From: Methyloprofundus sp.
GTDB taxonomy: Bacteria; Pseudomonadota; Gammaproteobacteria; Methylococcales; Methylomonadaceae
Assembly: GCA_028599115.1 (NCBI GenBank)
Contig: JAQRMR010000098.1
Coordinates: forward strand, 1 to 45,841
Reading direction: 5' to 3'
Length of the DNA: 45,841 nucleotides
Every line of letters starts with the position of its first letter. The stretch's first letter is position 1. Below the pieces are notes generated by a model. That model worked only from the letters and a program-made list of their open reading frames with translations. It did no database searches and was not told the origin of the DNA. Made by a program: the position numbers and the translations under genes. Shown here one piece after another: positions 23,475 through 27,801 of this stretch.

Positions 23475-24088
23475 GTTTTCTTTATCCGAACCACACACCG
23501 CTCCGCATCTATACCCGGAACCACTATTTTATCAAGCACATAAGGACAGCCCAACTCTTTTAGCTCATCCATTGGCGCTACACCCTTCATTGCAATCAAC
23601 ACCCCATCAGGGCGCAGTAAATATTCAGCCAACGCCATTATATCGCTTAAACTTGCAAACGCACGACTCAAAACCGCATCATATTCTTCAGCATACCCCA
23701 AATCCTCCACCCGACTATGCTTAACCTCTACATTAGCTAATTTCAACTCAACTATCGCCTGCTGCACAAAGCGCGTTTTTTTAGAGTTACTATCAACTAA
23801 AGTGAATGTCTGCTCGGTCAAAAAAATTGCCAACGGAATCCCTGGCAACCCCGCACCCGTTCCTATATCTGCTATTTTTTTTCCAGATACAAACGGCAAC
23901 AACGCCAAGCTATCTAAAATATGTAAGCGCAACATTTCCTCTCTATTGCGTATTGCTGTCAAATTATAGGTTTTATTCCATTTCTCTATCAATACCACAA
24001 AATTCAAAAGCTGATCAATTTGGTGCTCAGTTACCACTACACCTAATTCTTGCAGGCCTTCTTCTAAAATATTTCGACTGTTATCCAT
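23471..24088 (-). CDS. rsmG: 16S rRNA (guanine527-N7)-methyltransferase
   Basis: Methylates G527 of 16S rRNA with SAM. 205 residues. SAM-binding motif [15 protein letters not shown] at 73-87; the N-terminal helical part has the family's [11 protein letters not shown] signature (37-47). Overlaps mnmG by 8 bp and parA by 4 bp (ATGA), a compact order conserved in gammaproteobacteria. Confidence 0.97.
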
Positions 24089-25955
24089 TTTTTTTCTTCA
24101 TATAAATAAGCAAGATTGATATTGCAGCTGGCGTTATCCCAGGGATTCTTGCCGCTAACCCAAGCGTCTCAGGCTTCTGTTTAATTAACTTTTCCCGCAC
24201 CTCATTAGATAAACCTTTTATCAAAGCATAGTCCAATGACCCTGGAATCAGCAACCCATCATAACGCTTAGCCTTATCAATATCCTGCTGCTGCCTCTCT
24301 ATATACCCAGAATACTTTGCTTGTATTTCTACCTGCTCTAAAACCTGGCTATCTACTTCATCACTGACCGAAAGCTTTATTAATGTTTTAATATCAACTT
24401 CTGGGCGGCGCAGTAAATCCATTAAATTAACTTCCTTACTCAGAGTCTTTCCCCAAGCGCTCGCCACCTCAGCAGCAGCTTCCGAGCCTTTTCTTATCCA
24501 CTGCCCTTGCATCGATTTCTGCAAATCAGCAACCGCATCTCGTTTTTTATTAAAAGCATTCCAGCGCAAATCATCAACCAAATGCAATTCACGCCCTTTT
24601 TCTGTTAAACGCAAATCAGCATTATCTTCACGCAAAATTAGTCGGTACTCGGCACGACTGGTAAACATACGGTACGGCTCTTTAGTTCCATTGGCGATCA
24701 GATCATCAATCATCACACCAATATAAGCCTCATCTCTTGCAGGACACCAAGCCTCTTTCCCTTGCGCTTTTCGTGCAGCATTAAGTCCTGCAATCAAGCC
24801 TTGAGCCGCAGCCTCCTCATACCCCGTTGTTCCATTAATCTGTCCCGCAAAAAACAAGCCTGCCATATATTTTGTTTCTAATGATACTTTTAAATCTCTT
24901 GGATCAAAAAAATCATATTCAATCGCATATCCAGGCCTAATAATTTCCGCACTCTCAAACCCCACCATAGAACGCACAAAAGCATACTGAATGTCATACG
25001 GTAAACTTGTTGATATACCATTAGGGTAATATTCATTAGATTTCAACCCTTCTGGCTCAATGAAGATTTGGTGCGAGCTACGGTCAGCAAAACGCACGAC
25101 TTTATCTTCAATTGAAGGGCAATACCGCGGCCCAACCCCTTCTATTTCACCCGCGTACATAGGCGACCGATCCAGCCCCGCGCGAATAATCTCATGAGTC
25201 CGCTCATTTGTTCTCGTTATATAACAAGGTATTTGCTGGGGGTGCTGAGCCGAATTTCCCATAAATGAAAAAACCGGCACTGGTTTGTCGCCATGCTGCG
25301 TTTCTAGTACCGAAAAATCAATCGTGCGCCCATCAATCCTAGGCGGTGTTCCCGTTTTTAATCGATCAACTTTAAAAGGCAACTCACGTAAACGCTCAGC
25401 TAAGGCAATAGAAGCAGAGTCTCCTGCCCGCCCTCCAGTATAATTTTCTAAGCCGATATGAATCCGCCCACCTAAAAAAGTACCCGCCGTTAAAACTACC
25501 GTTTTGGCTTTAAATTGTAGCCCCATCTGAGTTTCAACACCCACAACAGCACCACCCTCAACCAACAAATCAGCAACCATTTGCTGAAAAAGCATTAAAT
25601 TCTCTTGATTTTCTAGAGCATATCGAACGAAGTCCTTATATAGCGATCTATCTGCCTGCCCCCGAGTCGCTCTTACTGCCGGTCCTTTGCTCGCATTTAA
25701 AATTCTAAAATGAATACCTGCGTGATCAATTGCTTGCGCCATAATCCCACCCAAGGCATCCACCTCCTTAACCAAATGACCTTTCCCTATTCCACCAATC
25801 GCAGGGTTACAGCTCATCTGACCGAGGGTATCTATACTTTGCGTAAGTAACAGCGTCTTCGCACCTGTACGCGCTGCCGCCAAAGCAGCTTCTGTACCAG
25901 CATGCCCCCCACCTACAACAATAACATCAAATTCTTTTGAAAATTTCACCGGCAT
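24081..25955 (-). CDS. mnmG: tRNA uridine 5-carboxymethylaminomethyl modification enzyme MnmG
   Basis: FAD-dependent partner of MnmE that installs the cmnm5 group on U34 of tRNAs. 624 residues, normal. FAD-binding [15 protein letters not shown] at 15-29, then [17 protein letters not shown] with the conserved cysteine region, [13 protein letters not shown], and the second signature [20 protein letters not shown]. The C-terminal helical domain interacts with MnmE and tRNA. First gene of the mnmG-rsmG-parA-parB cluster; no DnaA-box cluster was found next to it. Confidence 0.98.
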
Positions 25956-26021
25956 ATCTTAAAATTGAGTAATAATAACTTTCCATTAGGAGCTCTATCC
26001 AACAAAACCCAGAGGTTTATC

Positions 26022-26183
26022 ATGAAAAAACAGCCCAAAAAATCGAAAATGGTCTTAAATAGTGTCGCTAAGTACGCACACTACTTTAATAAATCTATAA
26101 CGTTCCGAGATAAAACAAAATATCAGCGCAACACAAAACATAAACATTCAAGCTATTCTTTATATACTGCGTGCAGTATATAA
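26022..26183 (+). CDS. Small basic protein, candidate ArfA-like ribosome-rescue factor
   Basis: 53 codons starting at an ATG preceded by AGAGG with good spacing. The product is very basic: an N-terminal KKQPKKSK, a middle NSVAKYAHYFNKSITFRDK and a KYQRNTKHKHS segment. As I recall, this layout (NxVAK.. FNK..TFRDK..K.KHK) resembles short gammaproteobacterial proteins annotated as alternative ribosome-rescue factor A or an uncharacterised DUF; the identity is not certain. Codons 43-53 and the stop lie inside a perfect 22-bp inverted repeat. E. coli arfA also carries a hairpin in its 3' coding part that gives non-stop mRNA, so the shorter product here would end near residue 42-45, retaining the basic KHKH segment. 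The frame is open upstream to 25965, but the extra residues lack support. Confidence 0.6.
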   Translation: MKKQPKKSKMVLNSVAKYAHYFNKSITFRDKTKYQRNTKHKHSSYSLYTACSI

Positions 26184-26194
26184 AGAATAGCTTG
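26149..26194. repeat. Perfect 22-bp inverted repeat straddling the stop of the small basic ORF
   Basis: Left arm 26149-26170 and right arm 26173-26194 are exact reverse complements with only GT between them. The core reads CTTTATATACTGC then GCAGTATATAAAG. In RNA it forms a long double-stranded hairpin suitable for RNase III. No T run follows, so it is not a normal intrinsic terminator. It lies 32 nt before the GAF/HD-GYP gene. Confidence 0.9.
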
Positions 26195-26226: not shown

Positions 26227-27801
26227 ATGTCTAATCAGCGCATTATTAAACAACTCGATAAATTAATAGAAATCAGCATTGCTTTATCGGAAGAGAAACC
26301 ACAAAACGAACTATTAGAAATGATCTTGCATGGTGCAAAATCTATAACTAATGCCGACGGTGGTACGCTTTATCTAGTAGAAGATGGGCAAATAAAAATG
26401 AGTATTATTCATTCCTGCTCTCTTAATATTCATTTGGGTGGAACATCCGACACGCCCATTAACTTACCTCATATTCCAATTTATTTAGACGACGGCCAAC
26501 CCAACTACAAGAATGTCGTCAGCTACGCCTTTCATCACAACAAAGCCATCAACATTCCTGATGCATACAACAATACTCTCTTTGATTTTTCTGGTGCAAA
26601 AAAATTTGATAAGCTAAACAAATACCACTCAAAATCTTTTCTTGCCATCCCCTTAAAAAATCACGAAAACGATACCATTGGTATTTTGCAACTCATTAAT
26701 GCTATTCACCCTGAAACAAAAAACATCATTGAATTTGATTCTATCTCCATGCGCTTCACCGAAGCTCTAGCATCTCAAGCCGCCATTGTTATTACCAAAC
26801 AACGCCTTATTTTCGAACTTGAAGAGATGTTCGAATCGCTTATCGAATTAATCGCCACCGCAATTGATGATAAATCACCTTATACCGGTGGACACTGCCG
26901 GAGGGTCCCCGAGCTCACGTCACTTATTGCAGAAGCAGCACATGACTCTCAATCAAATTATTTAAAAGACTTCCAACTCTCAAATGCAGATCGCTACCAA
27001 TTAAAAGTGGCTGGTTGGTTACATGATTGCGGAAAACTAACCACACCCGAGTATGTGGTAGATAAAGCAACAAAACTAGAAACTATTTACGACCGAATTG
27101 AAACAATTGAAACACGCTTTGAAGTACTTAAACGTGATACTGAAATTAAATACCTAAAAGAACAAATTGATGCATTAAAACAAGGAAAAGTAGCCGACGC
27201 TGAAAGCTACCACTTAGCTCAAGAAAAACTAAATGACGACTTTAATTTCATCAAAAAAAGCAATACGGGTAGCGAATTTATGCCCCCTGAAGAGCAAGAG
27301 CGCATCAAAGAAATCGCGCAACAAACTTGGGTAAAATCAGGTAAGAAATTACCTTTTTTGTCTGCAGATGAAATTCTTAATTTAACTATCTCTCGCGGAA
27401 CATTAACCAACTCCGAAAGAGGCGTTATTCAGCAACATATTTCCACCACCATTGCCATGTTGGACAAAATCAACTTCCCAAAACATTTACAAAATGTGCC
27501 TGAATATGCTGGCGCTCATCATGAGCGTATGGATGGAAAAGGCTACCCCAACAAACTAACGCGCGAACAAATGTCAATCCCTGCACGAGCAATGGCAATT
27601 GCCGATGTTTTCGAAGCTCTAACCGCTGCAGATAGACCCTACAAAAAACCTAAAACACTATCTGAAGCTTTATTTATACTTGAGAAAATGAAACAAGATA
27701 ACCATATCGACCCAGATATTTACGATGCCTTTATCCAAGAAAAGGTGTATTTAAATTATGCAAAAAAATTCTTAGATGCCTCTCAAATTGACCTTAGCTA
27801 A
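26227..27801 (+). CDS. GAF and HD-GYP domain protein, putative cyclic-di-GMP phosphodiesterase
   Basis: Cytoplasmic 524-residue signalling protein. Residues about 15-190 form a GAF sensor domain (LLEMILHGAKSITNADGGTLYLVED, then SFLAIPLKNHENDTIGILQLIN). From about 205 comes an HD-GYP domain: H223 (GGHCRRV), H266-D267 (LHDCGK), H404, H431-H432 and GYP at 439-441 (GAHHERMDGKGYP), then D460. The metal ligands needed for c-di-GMP hydrolysis are all present. Unusually, about 110 charged residues (roughly 285-392, with a coiled-coil-like IETIETRFEVLKRD stretch) are inserted between the HD and GYP halves. It follows the palindrome and shares a GTTT(T)ATCATG start context with the small basic gene, so read-through co-transcription is possible. 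Confidence 0.9.
   Translation: MSNQRIIKQLDKLIEISIALSEEKPQNELLEMILHGAKSITNADGGTLYLVEDGQIKMSIIHSCSLNIHLGGTSDTPINLPHIPIYLDDGQPNYKNVVSYAFHHNKAINIPDAYNNTLFDFSGAKKFDKLNKYHSKSFLAIPLKNHENDTIGILQLINAIHPETKNIIEFDSISMRFTEALASQAAIVITKQRLIFELEEMFESLIELIATAIDDKSPYTGGHCRRVPELTSLIAEAAHDSQSNYLKDFQLSNADRYQLKVAGWLHDCGKLTTPEYVVDKATKLETIYDRIETIETRFEVLKRDTEIKYLKEQIDALKQGKVADAESYHLAQEKLNDDFNFIKKSNTGSEFMPPEEQERIKEIAQQTWVKSGKKLPFLSADEILNLTISRGTLTNSERGVIQQHISTTIAMLDKINFPKHLQNVPEYAGAHHERMDGKGYPNKLTREQMSIPARAMAIADVFEALTAADRPYKKPKTLSEALFILEKMKQDNHIDPDIYDAFIQEKVYLNYAKKFLDASQIDLS

Follow-up and report, generated by a model that had tools for sequence, protein, structure and literature searches.

A hairpin-bearing gene of the DUF7230 family in methanotrophs as a probable ArfA-like ribosome-rescue factor

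Why a gene of 53 codons should end inside a perfect hairpin is the question raised by one locus in the window, the 45,841-nucleotide stretch of Methyloprofundus sp. DNA analyzed here (assembly GCA_028599115.1, contig JAQRMR010000098.1). The open reading frame (ORF) at this locus encodes MKKQPKKSKMVLNSVAKYAHYFNKSITFRDKTKYQRNTKHKHSSYSLYTACSI (translation of 26022-26183). A first-pass annotation made from the sequence alone had read it as a candidate ArfA-like ribosome-rescue gene. Its description of a 53-codon ORF with a good ribosome-binding site holds, with AGAGG 6 nt from the ATG, but the 26194 that it gave as end marks where the hairpin finishes; the ORF itself stops at 26183 (Table 1).

The locus and its family

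The annotation had also pointed to short basic DUF families as possible relatives, and the match recovered is of this kind: the window protein belongs to Pfam PF23876, DUF7230 (E 4.3e-14; 52.8 bits against a curated cut-off of 27). DUF7230 is a Pfam family of unknown function. No mention of it was found in the literature searched, the NCBIfam search of the window protein returned no meaningful match, and no DUF7230 matches occurred among the plasmids searched. Searched against the sequences of the PDB, the DUF7230 profile likewise returned nothing, while the ArfA profile recovers ArfA.

Homologues are present in 95 of 151 relatives. The named loci from a genome-wide scan fall in Methylococcales methanotrophs, including Methylomonas, Methylobacter, Methylovulum, Methylotuvimicrobium (the gene is carried by M. 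buryatense 5G, L130) and Crenothrix, and in a few SAR86-type genomes. The SAR86 members (L203, L205, L206, L080) end shortly past Y-x-R-K, with the terminus Y-D-R-K-N-I-N-K-D-E-D, and have neither the KH nor a hairpin. The gene stands divergently to mnmG in the window (24081-26183), and this conserved arrangement recurs at 41 of the 68 named loci. One nearly complete genome of the window's own genus (G010) gives no DUF7230 match; it has two full tmRNA matches, and a stop codon interrupts its best match to ArfB.

Table 1. Features of the DUF7230 locus, in window coordinates
Feature	Position	Strand	Basis or remark
ORF, proposed ArfA-like ribosome-rescue factor	26022-26183	+	53 codons, TGA at 26181-26183; PF23876 match
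Ribosome-binding site AGAGG	26011-26015	+	6 nt 5' of ATG; read from sequence
Conserved core N13-H40, N-x-V-A-K ... F-N-K-S ... F-R-D-K-x-K-Y-x-R-x-x-K-H	26058-26141	+	Alignments, per-residue conservation
Tail motif Y34-Q-R-N-T-K-H40, counterpart of ArfA YMRKGKH	26121-26141	+	Profile match to ArfA
Hairpin 5' arm, codons 43-50	26149-26170	+	Exact inverted repeat
Hairpin 3' arm, stop codon within	26173-26194	+	Exact inverted repeat
Predicted end of truncated functional product, codons 48-50	26163-26171	+	Inferred from conservation end and E. coli ArfA analogy
mnmG (gidA), divergent neighbour, context only	24081-25955	-	
GAF + HD-domain protein, next gene downstream, context only	26227-27801	+	

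The hairpin in the window and in orthologues

The hairpin derives from an inverted repeat of two 22-nt arms, 100% complementary and 2 nt apart (26149-26194). As first described, the last 11 codons and the stop lie inside this perfect repeat, the first arm starting at codon 43, and no T run follows on the + strand. As RNA, the repeat gives 21 base pairs capped by a CGUG loop, at -29.4 kcal/mol over a 91-nt stretch; the z of this stretch is -7.0, and none of 200 shuffles equals it. The hairpin exceeds chance expectation. An intrinsic-terminator U run after the G+C-rich stem was not found on the + strand, where the sequence past the stem reads CCAATAAG. At the ends of the 38 long genes of the window, the longest stems, of 11-18 bp, all begin past the stop; the DUF7230 gene alone has the 5' arm of a long stem in its coding sequence. 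No further copies of the hairpin arm with up to 3 mismatches occur in the window, and an Rfam search returned just weak miRNA-type chance matches to the bare hairpin.

To measure the hairpin in orthologues, the KH codon was taken as anchor at 72 loci and the next 100 nt were folded. Nearly all of these loci have a hairpin about 10 codons 3' of the Y-x-R-x-x-K-H motif, with a stem of 17-30 pairs and a loop mostly 29-33 nt past KH; the same codon position in orthologues, which the first-pass annotation had made a check on its reading, is thus the usual finding. The mean z over the 72 loci is -5.97, with 94% below -3, against control means of -0.4 (upstream), -0.6 (core) and -0.35 (downstream), with 0-4% below -3. 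When copies are thinned to less than 70% identity, 17 or more of the 22 pairs form about the best-placed centre in 56 of 59; for comparison, 16 pairs are reached by 1.8% of shuffles.

The annotation had named covariation as a further check, and the arms do show compensatory, two-sided changes. Between the window and L060, 17 pairs of the stem are unchanged and four are changed on both sides, with none changed on one side and none broken; between L060 and L061 there are four two-sided changes, one one-sided change and no broken pair. In the same-genus set, the cells number 205 for two-sided changes, 49 for one-sided changes and 88 for broken pairs; they count sequence pairs and not independent events. 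The sequence of the stem differs between species, and pairing at one position is kept.

The coding frame respects the same boundary. No stop falls before the hairpin centre in any of 115 distinct copies, and past the centre the stop positions are spread over 33 to 183 nt beyond KH. In the tail motif, Y, R and K are conserved in 100% and H in 98% of 58 copies; residue conservation drops beyond KH+7 and is near noise past the hairpin centre. This fading suggests that the conserved part of the protein stops at the closure of the hairpin and that the annotated tail can change freely. Several full-length ORFs have Ala-Ala at the stop, both in ArfA (L119, L124, L125, L126) and in DUF7230 (L050, L063, L064), and these share a similar tail, KHxGxE[PS][FY]...AA. 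Ends of this kind look like the ssrA degron and could make a read-through product unstable.

Two other origins of the hairpin may be weighed here. A routine terminator of transcription, or a hairpin for mRNA stability, might by coincidence lie across the 3' end of a small gene that has nothing to do with it; terminators at gene ends are common, and T runs do follow the stem in a few copies (at least 5 T in 8 at 5 of 72 loci). However, no U run follows the stem in the window copy or in most others, the frame is open up to the hairpin centre in all copies, and the other window genes place their long gene-end stems beyond the stop, so that we consider this reading highly improbable. A perfect 22-bp palindrome could also be a mobile REP-like repeat, or could have arisen by chance. 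But the hairpin sequence is unique in the window, and the conserved position and compensatory changes rule out a repeat or chance palindrome, to which we assign a negligible probability.

Hairpin-less orthologues, which the first-pass annotation had set against its own reading, are not the rule in Methylococcales, but they do exist: SAR86 and most phage members have none. Control through non-stop mRNA would therefore belong to the Methylococcales branch and some others, and not to the family as a whole.

Relationship to ArfA and other rescue factors

ArfA (PF03889; E. coli arfA/yhdL) and DUF7230 have in common a short basic protein with a Y-x-R-K-x-K-H-type tail (YQRNTKH in the window copy) and, in most copies, a long hairpin about 10-13 codons past KH with the frame open through it. 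When arfA of E. coli and related genes are measured in the same way, the loop in most of them lies within the ORF, about 30-45 nt past Y-x-R-K-x-K-H, and in a few it is closer. The two families also differ. The ArfA profile PF03889 gives no match to the window protein; a core of N-x-V-A-K...F-N-K replaces the N-terminal half of ArfA, the linker from the hydrophobic part to the tail is shorter, and none of the 28 aligned DUF7230 cores has KGKGS, whereas K-G-K-G is invariant in ArfA. F22 and F28 of the window copy are both conserved and are candidate counterparts of ArfA F25, which docks in an RF2 pocket; the alignment fits neither exclusively. The ends of ArfA are flexible off the ribosome. In ArfA and BrfA the Lys-His pair touches U534 of 16S rRNA (PMC6881298), and by analogy the DUF7230 tail motif is expected in the empty mRNA channel. 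The active truncated product of E. coli ArfA extends 8-10 residues past KH45, to a length of 53-55 aa (PMC3989591), and the mature end of the DUF7230 product is therefore predicted at residue ~48-50, 6-8 residues downstream of the end near residue 42 that was first proposed.

The direct profile match between the two families covers the tail only (~15 residues; score 21.0, probability 38-44%). None of 300 column permutations scored as well, the maximum being 18.0; a global alignment of the two is of poor quality. Four sequences on the fringe of DUF7230 (L083, L207, L208, L213) read NPVAK.VR[ST]P.FR.RVV.DKKK, and a bridge sequence from elsewhere in the phylum, L214, reads NPIAKSLRSPHLRLQVVKNKKTYSRKIKHKKGG. 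The bridge set matches ArfA with a probability of 88.7% (P 2.6e-6) and DUF7230 with 96.2% (P 2.4e-9), with 0 of 200 permutations as good in either case; for L214 by itself, the ArfA match has a probability of 90.5% (P 1.4e-6). In the genus of L214, a hairpin lies in the ORF past KH in three of four genomes and is terminator-like in two. Since the bridge sequences, though few in number, match both families, descent of DUF7230 from ArfA stock is favoured. The first-pass annotation had left the factor as "divergent or independently evolved"; the bridges speak for divergence, and an independent origin is the less favoured half of that statement.

Other known rescue factors resemble DUF7230 in part. 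BrfA of Bacillus subtilis shares with the proposal both non-stop expression and a Lys-His tail contact (PMC6881298) but, by description, has a terminator in place of a U-less hairpin, another N-terminal half, and a distribution confined to Bacillaceae. ArfT of Francisella tularensis is, like DUF7230, a small basic gammaproteobacterial protein (~40 residues), in its case a rescue factor; its tail, KKGGSTNKK, has no KH, however, and arfT has no in-gene hairpin or terminator (PMC6299226). BrfA and ArfT are regarded as independent inventions (PMC6881298, PMC6299226).

The genomic setting resembles that of ArfA in having tmRNA. The source genome holds a full tmRNA gene (204.6 bits) and a separate gene for ArfB, which has a GGQ catalytic domain of ~140 residues, unlike the window protein with its 53 residues and no GGQ. 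No ArfA above the PF03889 cut-off was found in the source genome or in 151 relatives. Of 41 relatives checked, 28 have tmRNA above the cut-off, and the remaining 13 give weak tmRNA matches alone, of a kind that tRNA genes also give; because 12 of these 13 assemblies are in at least 180 contigs, tmRNA is perhaps missing from the assembly and not from the organism. Among the 151 genomes, 27 carry DUF7230 and ArfB, 68 DUF7230 only, 28 ArfB only, and 28 neither. This negative association between DUF7230 and ArfB (Fisher P 0.009) is gone within families and therefore carries no weight as mutual exclusion. A mutual exclusion of DUF7230 and ArfA was likewise set aside: no genome of a class-wide sample carries both, but the carriers number 12 and 8, too few to be meaningful.

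Proposed function and phage relatives

These comparisons suggest that the product of the DUF7230 gene is probably an alternative ribosome-rescue factor, small and basic, that represents a divergent branch of the ArfA superfamily and is translated from non-stop mRNA to back up trans-translation. The ArfA-like reading of the first-pass annotation thus gains support from a conserved, co-varying hairpin at a fixed codon position and from the DUF7230 profile match. In the proposed mechanism, the hairpin that begins just past the KH tail motif would be cleaved, with loss of the stop codon, and the product would be translated from the resulting non-stop mRNA. The absence of a U run makes RNase III the likely cleaving enzyme. 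While trans-translation works, the product would be tagged by tmRNA and destroyed; when it fails, a truncated protein of ~48-50 residues would accumulate. Its Y-x-R-x-x-K-H tail would insert into the vacant mRNA channel of a stalled ribosome, and a release factor would be brought in by its N-terminal half.

It is also possible that DUF7230 is a rescue factor that reached the ArfA/BrfA solution, a KH tail with an in-gene hairpin, without shared descent. The restriction of the direct match with ArfA to ~15 tail residues, the poor global alignment, and the precedent of BrfA and ArfT as independent inventions (PMC6881298, PMC6299226) would all be consistent with such convergence; but bridges such as L214 match both families across most of their length, and we regard convergence as unlikely, if still a reading of some weight. 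A further alternative retains limitation through non-stop mRNA and trans-translation but assigns the protein a ribosome- or RNA-binding role other than rescue, in hibernation, inhibition or regulation. The expression logic and the tail motif alone are certainly shared with ArfA, and hairpin-less phage members could do something else. However, a KH tail, a bridge to ArfA and a tmRNA-gated layout are jointly known from rescue factors only (ArfA, BrfA), which makes a non-rescue role improbable.

A rescue role for DUF7230 would propose a specific function for a function-unknown family of methanotrophs and ~200 phage records. A 2021 review noted that more small rescue factors probably exist and that sequence similarity might miss them (PMC8012679); DUF7230 is a candidate to which the gene layout, with its hairpin past KH, has pointed.

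DUF7230 relatives are encoded on 49 viral contigs and in ~200 phage records, from jumbo phages to Pseudomonas, Vibrio and T4-like phages (L220-L283); the INPHARED carriers include phages of Pseudomonas, Vibrio, Aeromonas, Cronobacter and Salmonella, among others. The window protein matches PHROGs 6310, 1359 and 4586; PHROGs 1359, 6310, 5724 and 4586 are all annotated as of unknown function, and their representatives exceed the DUF7230 cut-off. Most of these phage members have no hairpin, but the exceptions are varied. PA5oct (L270) has a perfect intrinsic terminator, CAGGACTA-GGAA-TAGTCCTG-ATTTTTT, within the ORF directly past KH; Munch (L273), Hallingskeid (L280) and XbC2 (L281) have a 10-bp hairpin beginning directly past KH; and XacN1 (L220) has a 13-bp hairpin across the stop.

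DUF7230 may, then, be an extensive part of the ArfA superfamily that has escaped notice and is widespread in phages. Jumbo phages and other large ones would then supply a rescue factor themselves, in some cases without a hairpin and hence exempt from control by tmRNA, and in others with a hairpin or terminator directly past the KH tail; judging by these sequences, we hold this extension to be evenly balanced between right and wrong. A survey of jumbo phages names other rescue-type functions, but not ArfA (PMC7824862). If the phage members are active, ribosome rescue would be supplied during infection, perhaps countering host nucleases that cut mRNA or tRNA. One further phage member, that of Vibrio phage JSF12 (L277), is a longer, acidic-tailed DUF7230 ORF with an 18-bp stem in its last 58 nt, and it adjoins an exodeoxyribonuclease VIII gene.
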